DNA of 32,942 bases from Pseudomonadota bacterium (GTDB lineage Bacteria; Pseudomonadota; Gammaproteobacteria; Burkholderiales; SG8-39), in NCBI GenBank assembly GCA_021813275.1, contig JAKALD010000007.1:1-32942 (forward strand), given 5' to 3'. The first letter of the stretch is position 1. Every line of letters starts with the position of its first letter. Under the pieces are notes generated by a model. That model worked only from the letters and a program-made list of their open reading frames with translations, was not told where the DNA came from and made no database searches. Positions 8,879 through 32,942 of the stretch are shown here, piece by piece. The position numbers and the translations under genes are program-made.

Positions 8879-10582
8879 TCAGGCGAGGCCCGGATTGCCT
8901 CGCACGCCGATCAGCCGCGGCAGGTTGAGCCGCACCGGCGGCACTGTTTTCTTCGCACGCAGGTAGCCGGCCACGACCTCCCAGATCGGCTCGCCGCTCG
9001 CGCCCTCGGTGACCGGCGCCCAGCCCGCCACCTTGTACTTCTTGTGCGGCTCGAGCGGCTTGCCGGCGAGCCGCATGTCGCGGATGCGCGCGCCGATCAG
9101 CGCGTTCGGGTCGCAGGCGTAGGTCATGCCGCCCACGCGCACCATGTCGCCGCCCTGCTGCAGGTAGGGATCGGGGTTGAACAGGTTGTCGCACACGTCC
9201 TCGAGGATCGCCTTGATCTGCTCGCCGGTCAGCTCGTTGAGCGTGCTGTACGGGTAGGTGATCGCGGTCTGGTCCATGAGGTGCTCGTAGGTGATCGCGT
9301 CCCCCGGCAGCAGCGTCGTGCCCCAGCGGAATCCCGGCGAGAAGGCGATCTGCGCGTCCTTCACCGCGAGCTGCGCGTCGAGGATCAGCTGGTCGAAGGT
9401 GCCGTTGAAGTTGCCGCGCCGGTAGAGCAGCCCCTCGGTCGCCGCGAGGTGCTCGCCAAGCTTGGCGGCGTGCGGCTTGCGCACCTCCTCGATGTATGCG
9501 GCCATGTCGGGGTCCGCCGGCAGCAGCTTCGCGAACACCGGGAGCAGCTTGTAGCGGTAGCCCGCGAGGCCCCCGGAGCCGACCTCGAGATCGAGCACCG
9601 CGAGGAACTTGCCGTTCGAGCCCGCGTTCGTCACCAGCGTGCGGCCGCCGCCGTTCGCGATCACGCTGGGCGCCGGCACGCCGTCGTGAGTGTGGCCGCC
9701 GAGGATCACGTCGATGCCGCGGACGCGCGTGGCGAGCTTCAGATCCACGTCCATGCCGTTGTGCGAGAGCAGCACCACCACCTTGGCGCCCTTGGCGCGC
9801 ACTTCGTCCACCAGCTTCTGCAGCCGGCGCTCCTGGATCCCGAAGGTCCACTGCGCCATCAGATAGCGCGGGTGCGCGATCGGCGTGTAGGGGAAGGCCT
9901 GCCCGATGATGCCGAGCGGAACGCCGTTCACCGTGCGCAGCGAGTAGGGCGTGAAGACGGGGTCCTCGAAATCGACCGTCTTCACGTTCTGCGCGATGAA
10001 CTCGATCGGCGAAAGCTCCTTGGCGACCGCCTGCTGCACCCGCTCGGCGCCGTAGGTGAACTCCCAGTGCGCGGTCATGAGATCGACGCCGAGCCGCTTC
10101 TGGGCGCCGATCATGTCGGCTCCCTTGCTCCAGAGCGAAGTGGCCGACCCCTGCCAGCTGTCCCCGCCGTCGAGCAGCAGCGCGTGCGGCTGCTCGGCGC
10201 GCAGGCGCTTCACGAGCGTGGCGAGATGCGCGTAGCCGCCCACCTTGCCGTAGCGGCGCGCCGCGGCGACGAAGTCGAGGTAGGTGAAGGCGTGCGCGAG
10301 AGCCCCGCCGGGCGGGATGTGGAAGTACTTCAGCAGCGCCTCGCCGACCAGGTGCGGCGGCTTGCCGGCCGCCTGGCCGACGCCGATGTTGACGTCGGGC
10401 TCGCGGAAATAGATCGGTAGGAGCTGCGCGTGCACGTCGGTGATGTGCAGCACGCGAACCTGGCCGTACTTCGGCACGCCGTAGAGCTCGTCCGCGGCCT
10501 TGGCATCGGCGAGCCCCGGTCGCAGCGTGGCGCCGGCCGACCCGGCGATCGCCAGCAGCCTCAGAAAGTCGCGGCGGTTCAT
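8879..10582 (-). CDS. soxB: SoxB, thiosulfohydrolase / sulfate thiol esterase
   Basis: Tat-like N-terminus MNRRDFLRLLAIAGSAG; metallophosphoesterase motifs 'ITDVHAQLLPIYFREP', 'GGDSWQGSATSLW', 'LLSHNGMDVDLKLA', 'GGHTHDGVP'; 5'-nucleotidase-type C-terminal domain; sox operon context. Confidence 0.96.
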   Translation of the reverse strand: MNRRDFLRLLAIAGSAGATLRPGLADAKAADELYGVPKYGQVRVLHITDVHAQLLPIYFREPDVNIGVGQAAGKPPHLVGEALLKYFHIPPGGALAHAFTYLDFVAAARRYGKVGGYAHLATLVKRLRAEQPHALLLDGGDSWQGSATSLWSKGADMIGAQKRLGVDLMTAHWEFTYGAERVQQAVAKELSPIEFIAQNVKTVDFEDPVFTPYSLRTVNGVPLGIIGQAFPYTPIAHPRYLMAQWTFGIQERRLQKLVDEVRAKGAKVVVLLSHNGMDVDLKLATRVRGIDVILGGHTHDGVPAPSVIANGGGRTLVTNAGSNGKFLAVLDLEVGSGGLAGYRYKLLPVFAKLLPADPDMAAYIEEVRKPHAAKLGEHLAATEGLLYRRGNFNGTFDQLILDAQLAVKDAQIAFSPGFRWGTTLLPGDAITYEHLMDQTAITYPYSTLNELTGEQIKAILEDVCDNLFNPDPYLQQGGDMVRVGGMTYACDPNALIGARIRDMRLAGKPLEPHKKYKVAGWAPVTEGASGEPIWEVVAGYLRAKKTVPPVRLNLPRLIGVRGNPGLA

Positions 10583-16546: not shown

Positions 16547-16673
16547 TCTGAAGTTGTGGGCCCGGCGTTGCCTTCGGAACAATGCGGGCGGAGACCAGAG
16601 CGTGCACGCCGCGGCGTGAAGGCCGTCGGCGCGCATGCTCGCACCCGCATCGCATAACCCGACAGAGTCGATC

Positions 16674-17891
16674 ATGCCCGGATTGGTACGGCCGCACGGA
16701 GGGGGCGCGCTTCGGCCGCTCGCGCTCACCGCAGACGCGCTCAGAGCGGAGCGCACGCGCGCCAGGACGCTGCCCCAGCTGCGCGTCACCTCGCGCGAGA
16801 AAGGCGACCTCATCATGATGGGCATCGGCGGGTTCACCCCGCTCGACGGCTTCATGACGCGCGCCGACTGGGAAGGGGTGTGCGACGGCTACCGCATGGC
16901 GAGCGGGCTGTTTTGGCCCATCCCGGTGACGCTCTCCGCCGACGAGGTGTTCGCCGACGGCGTTCGCACCGGAGCCGAGGTGGCGCTCGTCGACCCGGAT
17001 ACGGACGAGATCCTCGCGACGATGCGCGTGACCGAGAAGTACCGCATCGACAAGGCGCACGAGTGCATGTCGGTATTCCGCACGACCGATCTCGAGCACC
17101 CGGGCGTGAAGATGGTGATGGCGCAAGGCGACGTGAACCTCGCCGGCCCGGTGAAAGTGCTCAGCGACGGCGGCTTCAAGGAAAAATACGGCGAGCTGTT
17201 CATGACCCCCGCCGAGACGCGCGCCGAGTTCGAGCGCCTGGGCTGGGCCAAGGTGGCGGCCTTCCAGACGCGCAACCCGATGCACCGCTCGCACGAGTAT
17301 CTCGCCAAGGTGGCGATCGAGACCTGCGACGGCGTGCTGATCCACTCGCTGCTCGGCAAGCTCAAGCCGGGCGACATTCCGGCCGAAGTGCGCACGCGCG
17401 CGATCGCGACGCTGATCGAGCGCTATTTCCAGGCCAACACCGTGGTGCAGGCGGGCTACCCGCTCGACATGCGCTACGCGGGCCCGCGCGAGGCGCTGCT
17501 GCACGCGCTGTTCCGGCAGAACTACGGCTGCTCGCATCAGATCGTCGGCCGCGACCACGCGGGCGTGGGCAGCTATTACGGGCCGTTCGACGCGCACAAG
17601 ATCTTCGACGAGATCCCGAAGGATGCGCTCGAGACGCAGCCGCTCAAGATCGACTGGACCTTCTGGTGCTACAAGTGCGGCGGGATGGCCTCGGCCAGGA
17701 CCTGTCCGCATGGGGACGCCGACCGGCTGCTCGTGTCCGGGACGAAGCTGCGCAAGTGGCTGTCCGAGGGCGCCGAAGTGCCCGCCGAATTCTCGCGTCC
17801 GGAGGTCCTGCAGATCCTGCGCGATTACTACGGCTCGCTCGAAGCGGGCGAGAAGGTGGAGGTCAAGCTGGTGGGCCACTCGGCCCGCTGA
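16674..17891 (+). CDS. sat: Sat, dissimilatory ATP sulfurylase
   Basis: '[18 protein letters not shown]' (QxRNP and HxxH), '[17 protein letters not shown]', '[16 protein letters not shown]'; homooligomeric Sat as in rDSR sulfur oxidizers. Confidence 0.97.
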
Positions 17892-19038: not shown

Positions 19039-20439
19039 TCAGGCTGACGGAAAGCAGAACGAGTCGGTCGAGCAGTCGCCGCCTTCGAGGCGCACCTGGT
19101 GCGAGCGGTAGCCGGGCTCGAACTCGACGCAGAAGTTCCGATCGAGCGCCAGGCCGCCGTTGGCCCTCGCCATCGCCATCATCCCGGGCACGCCGCCGGG
19201 ATAGAACTGGTCGTCCCACGTGCTGTAGAGCGAGTTCGTGAAGTACACGCGCTCGCCGTCGCGGCTGATCTCGACCATCTGCGGGCCGCCGCCGAACGCC
19301 GTGCCGCTCGGGTGCGGCGTGTGCCGGGCGACGCCGCCGACCCGCACCGAGCCCGTGAGCCTGGGGCTCATCGGGTCGGACACGTCGTATTGCCGCAGCT
19401 CGCCCGTCCCCCAGCAGGCGACGTAGAGGAACCGATCGTCGAGCGAGAGGTCGATGTCGCTGATCAGCGGCGGCACGGCCTTGAACGACTTGAGCAGATC
19501 CGGAAGCTGCGCCGGATCGGCCGGCTCGGGCGGGACGACCGCGGTCTTCTTCGCCTTGAACTTGCCGTTTTCGCGGTACCAGGTCCAGATGGAGGCTTCG
19601 AGGTTCGTGGTATCGACCACGACGCCGACGAAGCCGTAGTCCTTCGTCGGCTCGTGCGCCGGCCGGACCTCGAGCGCCATCTGGTGGTTGGCGCCCAGGT
19701 CGATGGTCTGCAGATGCCGTCGCCGGTGCAGGTCCCAGAAGTGCAGCCGATGGCCGTAGCGGTTGCCGAGCAGGTCCTCGGCGACCAGGCCGTTCTCGAA
19801 CTGCGGCGGCAGCCCCCACTCGCTCGAGATCATGTAGTCGTGCGGGATGTTCCACCAGAAGTCGTAGCTCAGGCGCTGGTCGCCGCGCTCCATCTCCCAG
19901 CGCCCGAGGACTTCGAAGCTCTCGCAGTCCAGAAGGAAGATTCCGGGAACGCCGTCGGTACCGTCGGCCCCTTTGCCGCCGAGCGTGCTGATGTAGACGC
20001 CCTCCGGCCCGCAATGCACGGTGTGCGGCCGCGAGTAGCCGGTCTTCTTCACGACCTCTTCCGGCTCGATCACCTTGACGATGGCCGCCTTCGTCGGTTC
20101 GGGCTTGGTGTCGACGATATAGAGCCGCGAGGAGCGCAGCCCCGGGACGATGAGATAGCGCCGCTCGGTGAACGGATGACCGTTGAGCGGGCAGAGCATC
20201 GAGCTGCAGGCATTCCAGCCGAAGTGGTGCAGCTCGTCGCCCACGTGGCCGAGCTCCACCTTGTGGACCGGCCGGCCGTAGCTCGCCGAGCCCGGCGCGA
20301 GATCGACGACCGCAAGCGCATCGGGTCGGGACTTGTCGGCTCGAAGCAAAGCCACGTAGGCATAGCGCTCGTCCGGAGCCTCCATGGCGAGGCGCGGCGA
20401 CGGGTAGAACGTAGGGTCGGGACGCAGCACGGCAGGCAT
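19039..20439 (-). CDS. mtoX: Selenium-binding protein 56 family / methanethiol oxidase
   Basis: 'HHFGWNACSSML', 'YSRPHTVHCGPEGVYISTLG', 'YDFWWNIPHDYMISSEWG', 'GHRLHFWDLHRRRHLQTIDLG', 'SDIDLSLDDRFLYVACWGTGELRQYDVSDP'. Confidence 0.9.
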   Translation of the reverse strand: MPAVLRPDPTFYPSPRLAMEAPDERYAYVALLRADKSRPDALAVVDLAPGSASYGRPVHKVELGHVGDELHHFGWNACSSMLCPLNGHPFTERRYLIVPGLRSSRLYIVDTKPEPTKAAIVKVIEPEEVVKKTGYSRPHTVHCGPEGVYISTLGGKGADGTDGVPGIFLLDCESFEVLGRWEMERGDQRLSYDFWWNIPHDYMISSEWGLPPQFENGLVAEDLLGNRYGHRLHFWDLHRRRHLQTIDLGANHQMALEVRPAHEPTKDYGFVGVVVDTTNLEASIWTWYRENGKFKAKKTAVVPPEPADPAQLPDLLKSFKAVPPLISDIDLSLDDRFLYVACWGTGELRQYDVSDPMSPRLTGSVRVGGVARHTPHPSGTAFGGGPQMVEISRDGERVYFTNSLYSTWDDQFYPGGVPGMMAMARANGGLALDRNFCVEFEPGYRSHQVRLEGGDCSTDSFCFPSA

Positions 20440-22170: not shown

Positions 22171-22946
22171 ATGTCCACGGAAAACGAATTCCGCCTCGAG
22201 ATGCCGCCGCACAGCCCGGTCGTTCCGGTGCAGATGTGGGAGCACGACACGCTGCGCTTTCGCTGCCACAAGGGCATTGCCTGCTTCAACAAGTGCTGCG
22301 AGAACGCCGACATCCTGCTCACGCCCTGGGACATCGTGCGCATGGCGCCGCATTCCGGCATCACCACGCGCGAGGCGATCGACCGCTACACGGTCGACTT
22401 CCAGATGGACGGCCAGGGCATGCCGGGGCTCAAGCTCGCGCGCAAGGAGGGCTCGACCGCGTGCCTGCACCTGACGCCCGAGGGCTGCGGCATCTATGCC
22501 GACCGGCCTGCCGCCTGCCGCTACTATCCCCTCGGCAGCGTGGCGCTGCGCAAGAAGGACGCGAGCGCGGTCGAGGATTCCTACTTCGTGGTGAAGGAGA
22601 AGCACTGCCTCGGCCACAACGAGCCGCACGAGCAGACGATCGCCGCGTACCGCCGCGAGCAGGGCATCGAGCCCTACGACGAGGCGAACCGCGAGTGGCG
22701 CGACATCGTGCTGAAGAAGCGCTCGAGCGGCCCGACGGTGGGCGAGCCGCCTGCCTCAAGCTCGCGATGCGCTTTCTCAGGCAGTCGCTGTTCGGCGAGA
22801 CCACGCTCAAGGTGCGCGAGGACGCGGCCGAGCGGCGCAAGCGCGCCTACCGCGAGCGCCTGGAGCGCGAGGCGCGCGAGAAGGCCGCGCAGCACGCCGA
22901 GCAGCAGGACCGGATGTACGACTCGCTGAAGGAGCAGGGCTGGTGA
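22171..22946 (+). pseudogene. YkgJ-family cysteine-cluster (Fe/Zn-chelating) protein with internal deletion/frameshift
   Basis: Frame from 22171 encodes 'FRCHKGIACFNKCCENADILLTPWDIVRMA...CLHLTPEGCGIYADRPAACRYYPLG' up to about 22748. The tail '[42 protein letters not shown]' is in another frame, ending at 22946. Confidence 0.55.
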
Positions 22947-23758
22947 ACGCACCTCGCGCGGCTGAGGCGACCGCGCTGATGGTGAGCGAGGAGCCCTACT
23001 ACCGGGCGGTGCGCGGCGAGGCGGAGCTGTTCGAGGCGGCGCACCGCAACCGCGTGCCGGTGCTGCTCAAGGGCCCCACCGGCTGCGGCAAGACGCGCTT
23101 CATGGAGTACATGGCGTGGCGCCTGGGACGGCCGCTCGTGACGGTGGCCTGCCACGACGACCTGACCGCGGCCGACCTCGTCGGCCGCTACCTCGTGACG
23201 GCCGACGAGACCGTGTGGCTGGACGGGCCGATGACCCACGCGGTGCGCATCGGCGCGCTGCTCTACCTCGACGAGATCGTCGAAGCGCGCAAGGACACCA
23301 CGGTCGTGATTCACCCGCTCGCCGACGACCGGCGCACGCTGTTCATCGAGAAGCGCGGCGAGGTGCTGCACGCGCCGCCGGAGTTCATGCTCGCGATATC
23401 GTACAACCCGGGCTACCAGAGCGTGCTGAAGGAGCTCAAGCAGTCGACGCGCCAGCGCTTCGTGGCGCTCGACTTCGACTACCCCGCCGCGGAGCTCGAG
23501 GCGGCGATCGTGGCGCGCGAGAGCGGCATCGACGCAGCCGCCGCCGAGCGCCTGGTGCGCCTCGCGCACATGACGCGCAACCTCAAGGGCAACGGCCTGA
23601 ACGAGGGCGCCTCGACGCGCCTCCTGGTGCACGCCGGCAAGCTCATCGCGCAGGGCGTGGCGCCGCGCGCGGCCTGCGAAGGCGCGATCTCGCAGGCGCT
23701 CACCGACGAGCGCGAGATGCTCGCGGCGCTCAATGAGCTCGTCACCTCGGTCTTCTGA
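22943..23758 (+). CDS. MoxR-type AAA+ ATPase, CbbQ/NirQ/NorQ family
   Basis: Walker A GPTGCGKT, Walker B ALLYLDEI, '[31 protein letters not shown]'; GTG start overlaps the upstream TGA (GTGA). Confidence 0.92.
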
Positions 23759-25835
23759 CGCGCCGCTCTCGGCGGCCGAGCTCGAGGAGCGCTTCGAGGA
23801 GCTGATCGGCGCGGTGCTCTCCTCGCGGCGCACCGCGGCCGGAATCGCCCACGAGCTCGCCGCGCGCGGGCGCGCGCTGCAGGACTTCGTGCTGCAGTGG
23901 GCGGCGGTCACCGCGAAATCGAGCCCCGAGCTCGCCTACCAGTTCGCGGCGCTCGCCGCGCGCGCGGTGGCCGAGCTCGGCTTCGCCGGCGCCGAGCGCT
24001 GGCTGCTCGCCGCGATGGAGGTTCACGACCGCGAGGGGCTGTATCGCGCGAGCGCCGAGCTGAAGGACCTCGACGCGTTCGTCGAGCGCAGCCGCGAGCG
24101 CGGCCGCGGCATCGCCTTCGACGAGGTCGCGCCGGTGCTCGAGCTGTTCGTTGCGGGCCTCGCCGGGCGCAGGCTGAGGCTCGAGGCCGCGGAGAGCGCC
24201 TGGACCGACACGGCCACGCTCTATCTGCCCGCGCGCATCGCCCTGTTGCCCAGCCACGCTGACAATTTCCGCCTCTACAAGCTGAGCGCGGCGCTGCTCT
24301 GGGCGCAAACCCGCCACGGCACGTTCAATCTGCCCGAAGCGGCGTATCCGCGCGAGGAGCGGGCGCTCGCGCTTTTCAACGTGCTCGAGGCGCTGCGCCT
24401 CGCGGCGCGCCTGGAGCGCGGGCTGCCCGGTCTTCACCGCGACCTGCAGGCGCTGGCGAGGCCCGCCCTGGGCCCCGAGTGGGCCCAGGCGGCCGGACAG
24501 CTGCGCAGGCCCGGGGCGAGCGCCGCCGACAGCGCCGCGCTTGTCGCGACGCTGCCGCGCTCGGCGCAGCCTCCGGCGTGGCCGTTCCTCGGCATGCTCG
24601 ATCCGGCGTGCGCGGCTGCGGTGCGCGACGAGCGCCTCGCGCGCGAAAAGCGCCTGCTGCGCGCCGCGCTCGCGCGCTTCGAGGAGGAGCTGCGCGGCGC
24701 GCGCGACGAAGGCGCCTCGCCGGCGGCCGGAGAGACGCCGCGCCTGCGGCTCGAGTCCGCCGAAGGCGGCGAGGAGATCGCGGTGACCTTGGGCGGCCAG
24801 CCGGTCGCTCCGCCGCAGGAGCTGAAGAGACTTGCCGAGTCCGTGCTCCAGGACCTGGGGCGGCTGCCCGAGGATCTGCTGCAGCCTGCGGGCGAGGGGC
24901 CCTGCGGCGCGGCTGCGCAGGCCCAGCCCGCCTCCGAGGAGCGCCCGGCGGAAGAGGAAGCCGGCGCGTTGCTCTACGACGAGTGGGATCACCGCCGCAA
25001 GCAGTACCGCAAGGGCTGGTGCGTGCTGCGCGAGCGCGACGTCCACCCGGGCGATCCGGCATTCGTGCCGGCGGCGCGGGCGCGCTATCGGCCGCAGGTG
25101 CGGCAGCTGCGGCGCTCGTTCGAGGCGCTGCGCGGCGAGGACAAGCGCCTGCGCGGCGAGCCGTTCGGCGACGACGTCGATCTCGACGCGCTGGTGCGCG
25201 CGCTCGCGGCGCTGCGCGCCGGCGCCGAGCTCGACGAGCGCGTGTTCGCGCGCCGCGCGCGGCACGAGCGCGACATGGCGGTGCTGTTCATGGTCGACAT
25301 GTCCGGCTCTACCAAGGGCTGGATCAACGACTGCGAGCGCGAAGCGCTGGTGCTGCTCACCGAGGTGCTCGAGGTGCTGGGCGACCGCTACGCGATCTAC
25401 GGTTTTTCGGGCGTGACGCGCAAGCGCTGCGAGGTGTACCGGGTGAAGCGCTTCGACGAGCCTTGCGACGCCTTGGTCGAGCGGCGCATCGCCGGGATCC
25501 AGCCGCTCGACTACACGCGGATGGGGGCGGCGATCCGCCACCTGAGCGCCATCCTCGCGGCGCAGCAGGCGCGCACCCGGCTGCTGGTGACGCTCTCGGA
25601 CGGCAAGCCGGACGACTTCTCCGACGGGTATCGCGGCGAGTACGGCATCGAGGACACGCGCCAGGCGCTCGTCGAGGCGAAACGCGCCGGCATCCACCCG
25701 TTCTGCATCACCATCGATCGCGAGGCGCGCGGCTATCTGCCGCGCATGTACGGCGCTGTCAACTACACCGTGGTCGCCGACGTGGCGCGCCTGCCGCTGA
25801 AGGTCGCCGAGGTGTACCGGCGCCTCACCGCGTAA
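23733..25835 (+). CDS. VWA-domain protein, CbbO/NorD family
   Basis: MIDAS '[44 protein letters not shown]'; '[46 protein letters not shown]'; overlaps the ATPase gene. Confidence 0.92.
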
Positions 25836-29207: not shown

Positions 29208-29270
29208 TGTCGTGGACCGGCGGCGCCTCGGCTATGATGCGTGCGACGTCAGGTCAGCGAGGACGATGCG

Positions 29271-29894
29271 GTGAGCGACGCACTGACATACCTGGTGAAG
29301 GCGCGGCCCGAGGCGATGGGCCATTATTTCCGCTTCCTCAAGCAGGCGGGCAGCAAGCTCGATCCCAAGACGCGCTCGCTCATCTCGGTGATCACCAAGG
29401 TGCACGCGCAGACCGAGCGCGGGCTCAAGCAGTACGTCAAGCGCGCGCTCGCCGACGGCGCGAGCCGCGACGAGATCCTCGATGCGATGCTGATGGCGTT
29501 CCCGGCGCTCGGCCTGTCGAAAATCGTCTGGGCGGTGGATGTGCTGCTCGCCTCGGGCCTGCCGGAGTTCCGCCTTGAGGAGCCGGCGGCCGCGCGATGG
29601 CATCGGGTGGGCGCGCTCGAAGCGTTCCCCGAAGGCGCAGCCGCGCGCGTCGCGTGCGACGGCAGGACGGTCTTCGTGCACCGTTCGAACGGTGGCGTTT
29701 CCGTCTACGACAGCCGCTGCCCGCACGAGGGCACGGACATCCCGCTCCAGGCGATCGAGGGGGGCGAGCTGCACTGCCCCAAGCACGACTGGCGCTTCGA
29801 TCTCGCGAGCGGGCGCTGCGTCGCGAAGGGCGACCGGCCGCTCAAGCGCTACCCGAGTCGCGCCGAAGCCGGCGTGCTGTACGCCGAATGGTGA
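29271..29894 (+). CDS. Carboxymuconolactone decarboxylase-like domain fused to a Rieske [2Fe-2S] domain
   Basis: N-terminal CMD-like 'DPKTRSLISVITKVHAQTERGLKQYVKRALADGASRDEILDAMLMAFPALG'; C-terminal Rieske 'SRCPHEGTDIPLQAIEGGELHCPKHDWRFDLASGRC' (CxH...CxxH). GTG start at 29271 or 29241. Confidence 0.85.
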   Translation: MSDALTYLVKARPEAMGHYFRFLKQAGSKLDPKTRSLISVITKVHAQTERGLKQYVKRALADGASRDEILDAMLMAFPALGLSKIVWAVDVLLASGLPEFRLEEPAAARWHRVGALEAFPEGAAARVACDGRTVFVHRSNGGVSVYDSRCPHEGTDIPLQAIEGGELHCPKHDWRFDLASGRCVAKGDRPLKRYPSRAEAGVLYAEW

Positions 29895-29898
29895 CCTT

Positions 29899-30774
29899 TC
29901 AGACTTCGGCGATCCGATCGTAGGAGCGCACGCGGTACAGCAGCCGGTGCTGCTCGGGCGCATCGCGGAAGGCGCTGCGCGCGTGCAGCACGTTGTTGCA
30001 CACGATCCCCATCCCCGGCGCGAGCCGCAGCCGCAAGATCCAGGGCGACGCATCCTGCAGCACGTGCTCGAGCGCCGCGCGCGCGGTGCTCGTCGCGCGA
30101 TCGTCCTTCCAGGCAATGTTCACGCCGCGCGCGGTGTAGCGCATGTGGAGCTTCCCGTCCCCGGGATCGACGCTGAACACCGGGCCGGTCCCGGCTGCGC
30201 GCGCCACGGCCTCGCCTTCCAGCCGCGGCGGGATGATAAGCGCGTCGGGCGCGGAGAGCGCGCGGATCAAATCGGGGTCCTCGTCGCGCAGCAGGATATA
30301 GGCGACCTCATGGTCGAGCAGCGCGCTCTCGCCGCCCTCGAGCGCGTCCCGCACGCAATGCAGCGTCATCGCGCGAATGCGCCGGACGGCGGGATTGTAG
30401 TAGCCGTCGGTGTGCCAGCCGATCGCACGGTCGGTGTAGGGAATGAACTCGCCGCGCCGGCCGCCTCCGGGCGTGATCGCGGAGACCCCGTCGTCCTCGG
30501 CGAAATGGTGGCGATCGAGCCGCGCGAGACCGAGCTGTGCGGCCAGCATCCGCGCCGCGTCCTGGCGCGCCGCGGCGCGCGGCGGGCAGGCGTACACGGC
30601 GAAGTTGCTTTGCGAGCAGCGCGTAAGGAGTGCCGCGCGCTCGGGCGCGCTCAGGGCGTGCGGATCCGCGATTTCGACGAGCTGCGCCTCGAGCTGCGCC
30701 CGGTTGCGCTCGAGCTTTTGCGCGCGCCAGGCGCGGTAGGCGCGCGCGTCCTCGAGGTCGAACGGGCCCGGCAC
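29899..30774 (-). CDS. TauD/TfdA-family Fe(II)/2-oxoglutarate dioxygenase
   Basis: 'IGWHTDGYYNPAVRRIRAMTLHCVRDALEGGESALLDHEV' (HxD), 'MGIVCNNVLHARSAFRDAPEQHRLLYRVRSYD' (distal His and Arg). Confidence 0.85.
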   Translation of the reverse strand: MPGPFDLEDARAYRAWRAQKLERNRAQLEAQLVEIADPHALSAPERAALLTRCSQSNFAVYACPPRAAARQDAARMLAAQLGLARLDRHHFAEDDGVSAITPGGGRRGEFIPYTDRAIGWHTDGYYNPAVRRIRAMTLHCVRDALEGGESALLDHEVAYILLRDEDPDLIRALSAPDALIIPPRLEGEAVARAAGTGPVFSVDPGDGKLHMRYTARGVNIAWKDDRATSTARAALEHVLQDASPWILRLRLAPGMGIVCNNVLHARSAFRDAPEQHRLLYRVRSYDRIAEV

Positions 30775-30778
30775 CGCG

Positions 30779-31348
30779 TCAGCGCGCCGCGGCGCGCGGC
30801 CGGAGCAGGCCGTCGAGGGCCTTGTTCAGGGCGCCGAGCAGCTCCGGCATCTCGACGTCCATGACCTGGTCCATGATCCAGTGCTGGTCGTCGCGCTCCA
30901 TGACTTCGCGGACCTCGGCCGCGAGGTAGCGCAGCGCCGGGAAGCTCGCGCCGGACTCGGGCAGCTCGAACTCGGCGTAATCCTCCGCGCGCCGGTTGAG
31001 CAGCGCGATGAACTCGCCGCGAATGTCGCCCTCGCCGGGATCGCCGAGCGCGCGCACGTTCTCCGCCATGATCTCGCCGAGGCGCGCGCCGATCGCCTGC
31101 ACGAGCGCCGCGCGCTCGCTCTCAGGCCAGCGTGCGTACGCCCTGCGATCGCACAGGTGCAGGCCGAAGGCGAGCACCTCGGCCAGGATGCGAAAGCCGC
31201 GCGCCGGGGTGACGATGTCGTAGCCCGCGCGCGAGAGGTCGTCGACGAGCTTGTCGGAGAGCCGCCACAGCGTCGCCGCGAGCACGCTCGCGGCCTCTTC
31301 GGGCGCGCGCGCATCCTGCTTGCGGAACCAGACGGTCTTGACGCGCAC
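30779..31348 (-). CDS. Hypothetical helical protein (189 aa) in the TusA/TauD operon
   Basis: Complete ORF MRVKTVWFRKQDARAPEEAASVLAATLWRLSDKLVDDLSRAG...; tight spacing with both neighbours; no family recognised. Confidence 0.75.
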   Translation of the reverse strand: MRVKTVWFRKQDARAPEEAASVLAATLWRLSDKLVDDLSRAGYDIVTPARGFRILAEVLAFGLHLCDRRAYARWPESERAALVQAIGARLGEIMAENVRALGDPGEGDIRGEFIALLNRRAEDYAEFELPESGASFPALRYLAAEVREVMERDDQHWIMDQVMDVEMPELLGALNKALDGLLRPRAAAR

Positions 31349-31351
31349 CTT

Positions 31352-31840
31352 CTACCCCCTGCGCAGGTGGAACTCCCACTCGCCCGCGCCGATCTCGCGC
31401 GCCTCGGCGAGCACGACGCCGGTCGCCGCGGTCCAGGTGCGCACCTCGTCGCGCGCCGCGGGACAGTTGGTGAGCAGGCGCAGGACTTCGCGCGGCTTCA
31501 TGCCCTCGAGCACGCGGCGCGCCTCGAGGATCGGGCCCGGGCACACCGCGCCGCGCATGTCGAGGGTCACCTGGGCGCGCAAGGCCGGCCCCTTGCCCTT
31601 GCGGATGTAGAAGACGTTGCGGTTCGCGGCCTGATGCTCGACCTGGACGATTTCGTTGCCGGTGTGGCGCGCCCAGATGAACAGGTCGTCGCGCGTTCCC
31701 GGACAGTCCGAGACAAGGGCGAGGATCTGTCCCGGCTTGAGGTCGTCGACGACCTGCTTGGCGCCGAGCAGCGGCTCGGGGCAGATGAGGCCGGTGAGAT
31801 CGAGCCTCGCATCTGCGGCGGGCGTCGCTTTCTGGCTCAT
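31352..31840 (-). CDS. Tandem TusA-TusA sulfur-carrier fusion protein
   Basis: Two CPxP TusA domains: 'DLTGLICPEPLLGAKQVVDDLKPGQILALVSDCPGTRDDLFIWARHTGNEIV' and 'DMRGAVCPGPILEARRVLEGMKPREVLRLLTNCPAARDEVRTWTAATG'. Confidence 0.92.
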   Translation of the reverse strand: MSQKATPAADARLDLTGLICPEPLLGAKQVVDDLKPGQILALVSDCPGTRDDLFIWARHTGNEIVQVEHQAANRNVFYIRKGKGPALRAQVTLDMRGAVCPGPILEARRVLEGMKPREVLRLLTNCPAARDEVRTWTAATGVVLAEAREIGAGEWEFHLRRG

Positions 31841-32079
31841 GGCGCTTCTCCTTCGCCCGGCGAGCGCTCGCAACCGGACGCGGTTGACCAGGCGAGCATC
31901 GCCTCGCCCCAGGCGCGCGCGCTCTGCACATCGATGTCGAACACGGTGAAGCGCTTGCCCTCGCGGATGCGCACGCGCAGCAGCCGCATGCCGCCCGCAC
32001 CGAAGTCGATCTCGTGCAGCTCGATGCTCTGGCCGCCCAGCGGAACGGTGAGCTTCGCGAGGGGGTTGAGGGGGGTCAT
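31837..32079 (-). CDS. Small hypothetical protein (80 aa), first gene of the operon divergent from dsrA
   Basis: MTPLNPLAKLTVPLGGQSIELHEIDFGAGGMRLLRVRIREGKRFTVFDIDVQSARAWGEAMLAW...; ATGA overlap with the TusA2 gene; CAGGAGCG RBS. Confidence 0.75.
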   Translation of the reverse strand: MTPLNPLAKLTVPLGGQSIELHEIDFGAGGMRLLRVRIREGKRFTVFDIDVQSARAWGEAMLAWSTASGCERSPGEGEAP

Positions 32080-32116
32080 TGGCAACGCTCCTGCGGGCCA
32101 GCTTGCCAATGTGGCA
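32078..32116 (-). promoter_or_regulatory. Inverted repeat sequestering the start codon, with a second overlapping palindrome
   Basis: ATTGGCAA-N17-TTGCCAAT (8-bp perfect arms, 32078-32110) with AGGAG in the loop; overlapping TGCCA-ATG-TGGCA at 32104-32116. Confidence 0.6.
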
Positions 32117-32336
32117 CCGATCGGCCGGCCAGGACACTTCCCCGGTAGGCGGATCGCGACCTACCCGTTCGGCTAGGTATGCCACTCCCCGCCTGGGCGG
32201 GCCGCGGCTCCCGCACTGGCTGATGTGCGCGCCGAGGTCGAGCGCATACGATCACGCGGATCTGTCGGTGTTTTGACGGGGCGCGGGCCGCAAGAAAGCC
32301 CGCCACCGGGCGCGGATCTCCGAAGGAGGGTCGAGC

Positions 32337-32942
32337 ATGAGCAAGAAACAGCACGAGACGCCGCTTCTCGACGAGCTCGAGAAGGGCCCCTGGCCGAGCT
32401 TCGTGACCGGCCTCAAGCGCCTCGCGCAGGACAACGACATGGCGGCCGACCTGCTCGGCCAGCTCGAGACCTCGTACCGCACGAAGAAGGGCTACTGGAA
32501 GGGCGGCACGGTGGGCGTATTCGGCTACGGCGCGGGGGTAATCCCGCGCTTCACCGAGCTGAAGGACGCCGAGGGCAAGCCCGTCTATCCCGCCGCCGCC
32601 GAGTTCCACACGCTGCGCGTGCAGCCCCCGGCGGGCATGCACTACTCGACTGCGCTGCTGCGCAAGCTGTGCGACATCTGGGTGAAGCACGGCTCGGGCC
32701 TGATCGCCTTCCACGGCCAGAGCGGCGACATCATGTTCCAGGGCGCCACCACCGAGAACGTGCAGGCGGCCTTCGACGAGCTGAACGAGGCCGGCTTCGA
32801 CCTCGGCGGCGCGGGCGCGGCGATGCGCACCTCGATGAGCTGCGTCGGCGCGGCGCGCTGCGAGATGAGCTGCTACGACGAGCAGCGCGCGCTCAGGACG
32901 GTGATCAACTCCAACCTCGACGACATGCACCGGCCGTCGCTG
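32337..32942 (+). CDS. dsrA: DsrA, (reverse) dissimilatory sulfite reductase alpha subunit, truncated by window end
   Basis: ATG 32337 after GAAGGAGGG; MSKKQHETPLLDELEKGPWPSFVTGLKRLA..., 'TVGVFGYGAGVIPRF', 'FHTLRVQPPAGMHYSTALLRKLCDIWVKHGSGLIAFHGQSGDIMFQG', 'MRTSMSCVGAARCEMSCYD'. Not in the ORF track because it runs off the edge. Confidence 0.96.
   Translation, partial: MSKKQHETPLLDELEKGPWPSFVTGLKRLAQDNDMAADLLGQLETSYRTKKGYWKGGTVGVFGYGAGVIPRFTELKDAEGKPVYPAAAEFHTLRVQPPAGMHYSTALLRKLCDIWVKHGSGLIAFHGQSGDIMFQGATTENVQAAFDELNEAGFDLGGAGAAMRTSMSCVGAARCEMSCYDEQRALRTVINSNLDDMHRPSL

Follow-up and report, generated by a model that had tools for sequence, protein, structure and literature searches.

Reverse dissimilatory sulfite reductase (rDSR) is one of the main pathways by which microbes oxidise sulfur; to our knowledge, the regulation of its genes and the maturation of its enzyme are largely open. 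In Allochromatium and Thiobacillus, the pathway is represented by the cluster dsrABEFHCMKLJOPNRS. The locus considered here lies on contig JAKALD010000007.1 (assembly GCA_021813275.1), the whole 32,942 nt of which are referred to as the window; the contig belongs to a draft genome (G000) of 3.67 Mb that is 94% complete. Divergent from dsrA, its minus strand carries a four-gene operon encoding a DUF6967 protein, a tandem TusA (TusA2), a 189-aa protein (p189), and a TauD-like Fe(II)/2-oxoglutarate (Fe/2OG) oxygenase. The module to which these genes belong has its divergent promoter region in common with dsrA and tracks that gene across genomes, whereas its members are not among the named dsr genes and occupy the opposite strand. 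In A. vinosum, DsrEFH is an established sulfur donor to DsrC, and the Tus proteins resemble DsrEFH and DsrC (PMC3397948). The module is reminiscent of the Tus relay (TusA-TusBCD-TusE-MnmA) in possessing a TusA with CPxP motifs and, in relatives, a TusE/DsrC-type partner; it differs in that its TusA is tandem, its main DsrC partner has no carrier Cys, and MnmA was not seen in it. The features of the locus are as follows.

31837..32079, minus strand: 80-aa protein of the DUF6967 family (PF22295), ATG at 32079; Pfam 92.2 bits, cut-off 27
31352..31840, minus strand: tandem TusA (TusA2), 162 aa; two PF01206 domains, 123 bits, with CPEP and CPGP
30779..31348, minus strand: 189-aa protein (p189), GTG start; no Pfam or NCBIfam family, predicted six-helix bundle
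29899..30774, minus strand: TauD-like Fe(II)/2-oxoglutarate oxygenase, GTG start; PF02668 60 bits, cut-off 27
32080..32336, no strand assigned: divergent promoter region shared by dsrA and the module
32144..32178, no strand assigned: ACCTAGCCGAACGGGTAGGT plus CCTACC, operator-like; imperfectly matches the palindrome ACCTACCC-N4-GGGTAGGT from the same gap of relatives
32337..32942, plus strand: dsrA (oxidative dissimilatory sulfite reductase alpha), first 202 codons; PF03460, truncated at the contig end

As far as the linkage is concerned, it is almost certain that the four genes constitute the form taken in the window organism by an rDSR accessory module, which is divergent from dsrA and nearly restricted to dsrA-positive genomes. 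A search of genome contigs with the single p189 sequence gave no matches, and a profile built from closer members retrieved 80 loci in Thiobacillus, Sulfuriferula, Sulfuricella, Parasulfuritortus, Tepidiphilus, Gallionellaceae, and further Betaproteobacteria. Enough sequence to reach the position of dsrA (more than 4.3 kb before p189) was available for 61 of the 80, and a divergent dsrA was present in all 61. The same betaproteobacterial loci encode a Cas6-family protein (PF09559, 61/61), a DsrC paralogue ending in KGGY (58/61), and DUF6967 (55/61), usually in the order dsrA (reverse), DUF6967, Cas6-family protein, DsrC-like protein, sulfur transferase, p189, and TauD. Because relatives carry the Cas6-like and DsrC-like genes at the position where the window has the direct overlap of the DUF6967 and TusA2 genes, the window represents a shortened version of the module. 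In gammaproteobacterial loci, dsrA (reverse) is followed by TauD, an open reading frame (ORF) of ~70 aa, sometimes an ORF of ~250 aa, the Cas6-like gene, and KGGY-DsrC, with p189 further off. The usual parts are therefore the TauD-like oxygenase, the Cas6-like protein, KGGY-DsrC, and p189, to which betaproteobacteria add DUF6967 and a sulfur-transferase slot. Recurrence of these pieces next to dsrA across dozens of genera places the arrangement far beyond chance.

The first-pass annotation, made from the letters alone, had described four tightly packed minus-strand genes divergent from dsrA, and all of them are present: an ATGA overlap joins the 80-aa gene to the TusA2 gene, 3 nt separate the TusA2 stop from the p189 start, and 4 nt separate p189 from the TauD-like gene. 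The proposed two-domain TusA fusion is likewise borne out by two PF01206 domains, each with CPxP. Of the two proteins then left unassigned, p189 indeed belongs to no family, whereas the 80-aa protein falls into the existing DUF6967. A dsr-linked module with a sulfur-transferase component had also been proposed, and its linkage proves stronger and wider than could have been seen from one contig (all 61 loci and the survey of 369 genomes described below). The four genes do not, however, form a set that is conserved together, as TusA2 is mostly replaced by a rhodanese and DUF6967 is missing from most gammaproteobacterial loci.

Strong dsrA matches were detected in 26 of 101 genomes from the window's family and order. 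Among these relatives, p189 occurs in 25 of the 26 dsrA-positive genomes, in three more without visible dsrA (84-88% complete, or in short contigs), and as one weak match. DUF6967 was found in 20 of the 101, every one dsrA-positive; the TauD-like protein (E <1e-70) in 27, comprising 23 dsrA-positive and four incomplete genomes; and PF09559 in 26, of which 24 are dsrA-positive. The survey was widened to 369 genomes of the GTDB class Gammaproteobacteria, which includes Burkholderiales. Here, p189 was present in 116 genomes and strong dsrA in 119: both in 108, p189 alone in 8, dsrA alone in 11, and neither in 242 (Fisher 1.4e-69); the neighbourhood check suggested earlier for restriction to rDSR genomes thus came out in favour of the linkage. 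PF09559 behaves similarly (117 genomes, 110 with and 7 without dsrA, dsrA alone in 9; Fisher 1.9e-73), and most of the discordant genomes are fragmented. Where the Cas6-like gene and dsrA share a contig (83 genomes), they lie at most 6 kb apart in 81, and all 81 pairs are divergent. Distances between module proteins correlate with DsrA distances (rho 0.61-0.75, kinship ignored). In a sample of 384 genomes from the phylum, in which dsrA was not part of the count, p189 occurred in only five, all from the window's own order; the module seems confined to the GTDB class Gammaproteobacteria. No p189 was found in phage records, and the only plasmid matches to the Cas6-like protein were cyanobacterial CRISPR (clustered regularly interspaced short palindromic repeats) Cmx6 proteins. 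The module, almost confined to genomes with oxidative dsrA and adjacent to that gene, stands back to back with it in almost every sulfur-oxidising gamma- or betaproteobacterium examined.

The window dsrA fragment belongs to the same pathway: over its 202 codons, identity to the dsrA genes of rDSR relatives is mostly 79-88%, and TIGR02064 is matched in part. No match to dsrB or canonical dsrC was found anywhere in the draft genome, which is most simply explained by a dsr cluster that continues past the contig end and was not assembled. The sole DsrC-family gene of the genome lies elsewhere (G000:C155, 2885-3241, minus strand, locus L305) and has only CysB (QACKVAG...RAWSTG). Its neighbours, named by eye, are nitrilase-like, Rrf2-like, and benzoyl-CoA-reductase-like.

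The Cas6-like protein, which was seen in relatives only (no PF09559 match exists anywhere in the window genome), resembles Cas6/Cmx6 of CRISPR systems (TIGR02807, PF09559; type I-MYXAN and the type I-B of CRISPR-associated transposons, CAST). It matches the profiles over its full length (TIGR02807, 218 bits, cut-off 99; PF09559, 202 bits, cut-off 27), and its PDB match is a type I-B Cas6 of CAST (E 3e-14). For comparison, 104 dsr-linked proteins were set against five true Cas6 proteins, four of which adjoin cas3 while the fifth is the solved CAST Cas6. The Gly-rich C-terminal loop and several Arg residues are retained in the dsr-linked proteins, whereas the His after helix 1, invariant in the five true Cas6 proteins, is replaced in all 104. 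Judging from its position, this is presumably the catalytic His, and the Cas6-like protein may thus bind RNA without the usual cleavage. The genomic setting differs as well: true Cmx6 genes adjoin cas3, whereas the dsr-linked genes diverge from dsrA amid dsr genes. No CRISPR-like array was detected among 139 flanking stretches (2.15 Mb), which were not scanned with cas profiles.

In the third module gene of relatives, the family resemblance is to DsrC/TusE: the protein is a full-length member of PF04358, with DsrC structures as its best PDB matches, but it ends in KGGY, has no terminal Cys and nearly always lacks CysB. The KGGY end was present in 103 DsrC-like members, 91 of which contain no Cys in the last 25 residues; for this reason, the paralogue cannot work like DsrC. 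Cys-less DsrC paralogues have earlier gone by the name RspA, although this name did not turn up in the open-access literature searched. In some loci (L110, 10572-10892; L114, L115, and L190-L193), tandem TusA is accompanied by a second DsrC-like protein that has only CysB and ends in GFGSV, which suggests a TusA2-DsrC2 pair. Among the 80 loci, the sulfur-transferase slot contains a rhodanese in 65, tandem TusA in 11, both in 1, and neither in 5; it is usually empty in gammaproteobacterial loci. The sulfur-carrier motif is kept in both TusA domains, and the rhodanese keeps its active-site loop CGSGVTA.

The p189 model (AlphaFold2) is a six-helix bundle with a predicted local distance difference test score (pLDDT) of 85.5, and it gave no match in the PDB at E<=0.001. 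Matches of p189 from profile searches of PDB and Pfam were rejected as chance-level. For DUF6967, the AlphaFold2 model has a bbbb-alpha fold (pLDDT 85) that comes nearest to Pur-alpha repeats and also resembles a PC4 homologue (E 0.15 or worse), and the protein is a putative single-stranded nucleic-acid binder with a possible PUR-repeat/PC4-like fold. The p189 genes of gammaproteobacteria have recurrent neighbours of their own. In loci L264-L303 (e.g., L288, 5329-9389), these are DUF6866 (355 aa), two more Fe/2OG oxygenases (PF13640), and a ~70-aa protein that resembles ribosome modulation factor by eye and has no Pfam match. A second recurrent set (L288, 9417-14000; L296) comprises, by eye, TrpD2-like, Sel1-repeat, MoxR-like AAA, von Willebrand factor A (VWA)/metallopeptidase-like, glutaredoxin, and CysG siroheme synthase genes.

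The window oxygenase shares the fold family and the intact Fe/2OG site of TauD/TfdA enzymes (TmpA, gamma-butyrobetaine, and trimethyllysine dioxygenases). Residues H121, D123, H264, and R281, i.e., the HxD...H iron site and the C-terminal Arg, are invariant in 96 TauD-like sequences, and TmpA is its only PDB relative by sequence; on account of these two properties, the protein is probably an active oxygenase. In contrast to the described enzymes, it has a conserved linkage to rDSR and scores far below the model cut-offs: at most 46 bits against NCBIfam substrate-specific cut-offs of at least 268, with the models of trimethylamino-compound hydroxylases (TmpA, gamma-butyrobetaine, trimethyllysine) as the closest. 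The NCBIfam model of taurine dioxygenase gave no match, and neither a transporter nor a sulfonate gene was recognised as a recurrent companion of the TauD-like gene. A few bp away and convergent with it, the window encodes a carboxymuconolactone-decarboxylase-like domain fused to a Rieske domain (29241-29894, plus strand), a homologue of which adjoins TauD in L115 and L205. Outside the module (L197, 6122-8612; L200, 2075-8705), a TauD-like paralogue adjoins NnrS (PF05940) in one genome, and another, in Sulfuricella sp. T08, adjoins hemerythrin, haem-copper oxidase/NorB-like (PF00115), Rrf2, and NapC/NirT genes.

The gap between the module and dsrA contains what looks like a shared DNA operator of both. 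The palindrome CTACC...GGTAG occurs in 31 of 104 dsrA-module gaps, compared with 0.3 expected after shuffling, and its strict form, CCTACCC-N2-6-GGGTAGG, has 19 copies in dsrA gaps and none elsewhere in 80 loci. Part of this excess reflects shared descent, since related loci are not independent. The palindrome was not found in most gammaproteobacterial dsrA-module gaps. An RNA element in the dsrA leader was rejected as a candidate: the Thiobacillus leaders show a consensus hairpin with a covariation term of ~0, and the palindrome gives the stronger signal. An Rfam scan of the region returned no family, and a lone sub-threshold miRNA match is attributable to chance.

Taken as a whole, the module is tentatively interpreted as a sulfur-responsive, nucleic-acid-binding control or quality unit for rDSR. 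The Cas6-like protein and DUF6967, as putative binders of nucleic acids, would act on dsr transcripts or on the common promoter. A report on the persulfide load might come from the DsrC mimic and the sulfur-transferase slot, for instance through competition with DsrC for DsrEFH, TusA, or DsrAB, while the oxygenase could introduce an O2- and 2OG-dependent modification into a module member or a Dsr protein. The output would be a synthesis or activity of DsrAB matched to the sulfur supply, and the window organism would retain only the DUF6967, TusA2, p189, and TauD parts. Sensing of sulfane sulfur, the alternative raised in the first-pass annotation, would be a part of the favoured explanation.

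Several observations weigh against such a control unit. The co-occurrence counts and distance correlations ignore shared ancestry; the counts do span many families with patchy dsrA. A few dsrA genomes seem to miss parts of the module (e.g., G307, 99% complete), and the window genome has neither the Cas6-like protein nor KGGY-DsrC; therefore, these two are not essential to every version. The top Foldseek match of DUF6967 is Pur-alpha, with a probability of 0.96-1.00 and a template modelling (TM) score of ~0.6-0.7, but with an E value of 0.15 or worse. Finally, the context of the TauD-like gene elsewhere had been raised as a point to check: Sulfuricella and a further two genomes have paralogues outside the module, and for two of these paralogues the surroundings relate to nitric oxide or denitrification.

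A sulfur-relay or maturation unit is rather less probable than a control unit. Persulfide would pass from TusA2 or the rhodanese to DsrEFH/DsrC, and the oxygenase, p189, and the DsrC paralogue would help to assemble or protect DsrAB or DsrC, nucleic acids playing no part. The intact CPxP motifs and rhodanese loop, the alternation of two sulfur transferases in a single slot, and the transfer from DsrEFH to DsrC established in A. vinosum (PMC3397948) argue for it. Such a relay nevertheless leaves unexplained the Cas6-family protein of all 61 loci and the mostly Cys-less KGGY-DsrC, and the slot on which it depends is seemingly the least conserved position of the module.

The resemblance of Tus proteins to DsrEFH/DsrC (PMC3397948) also lends some plausibility to a unit modifying RNA or tRNA, in which the Cas6-like protein would present an RNA hairpin, TusA or the rhodanese would supply sulfur as in Tus-MnmA, and the 2OG oxygenase would hydroxylate a base, tuning dsr translation. 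The retained loop and Arg residues of the Cas6-like protein, the intact active site of the oxygenase, and the second DsrC-like protein with only CysB beside TusA2 in some loci are consistent with this proposal. It is nonetheless unlikely, as the module has no thiolase (MnmA-like) or adenylating enzyme and its main DsrC paralogue has no Cys for sulfur carriage. Members of the TauD family act, as far as we know, on small molecules.

Protection against redox stress or nitric oxide, whereby the oxygenase, p189, and their partners would defend siroheme or Fe-S enzymes in aerobic or denitrifying growth, is suggested by the neighbours of the off-module TauD paralogues, from NnrS to NapC/NirT; however, no recurrent nitric-oxide gene was recognised near gammaproteobacterial modules in a scan that was not exhaustive, and the Cas6-like protein and DsrC paralogues would be left without a role, which makes this improbable. 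The earlier idea of organosulfur mobilisation, with a taurine-dioxygenase-like enzyme freeing sulfur that TusA carries into rDSR, has the PF02668 match, the presence of TusA, and a window-encoded member of the SBP56 selenium-binding family (which includes methanethiol oxidases) in its favour, but it is the least supported and very improbable, given an oxygenase near no substrate-specific cut-off, no recurrent transporter seen, usual partners that are a Cas6-family protein and a DsrC paralogue poor in Cys, frequent absence of TusA2, and occurrence of the module in oxidisers of inorganic sulfur, Thiobacillus among them, and of p189 in ~1-Mb genomes that we take to be symbionts.

The window has further sulfur genes: the minus strand encodes a 5'-nucleotidase-family protein of the size of SoxB (8879-10582) and the SBP56 selenium-binding/methanethiol-oxidase family protein (19039-20439), and the plus strand an ATP sulfurylase (16635-17891). 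Also on the plus strand is a gene for a CbbQ/NorQ AAA protein, after which comes one for a VWA-domain protein (22943-25835).

The open-access literature searched contained no paper linking Cas6, p189, or DUF6967 with dsr, and its mentions of Cas6 in two genome papers on sulfur bacteria concern CRISPR loci; single genes may have been mentioned earlier in subscription papers. The module as a whole appears undescribed, its novelty residing in composition and linkage as read from sequence. One possible, though doubtful, history is that a CRISPR-type Cas6 was domesticated, with loss of its His, into a sulfur-oxidation control system that would bind dsr RNA in partnership with a DsrC mimic and a 2OG oxygenase; this system would occur in almost every rDSR organism of the gamma- and betaproteobacteria and be hidden by CRISPR annotation, and the window lineage would have lost the RNA-binding part and kept the tandem TusA. 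In the GTDB class Gammaproteobacteria, a PF09559 "Cas6" annotation signals sulfur oxidation instead of CRISPR defence (dsrA is present in 110 of the 117 genomes with PF09559), and the p189 family might be used as a marker of oxidative DSR. A conserved, unnamed module stands next to dsrA in almost all rDSR organisms sampled among gamma- and betaproteobacteria, and it offers genes that can be tested directly.

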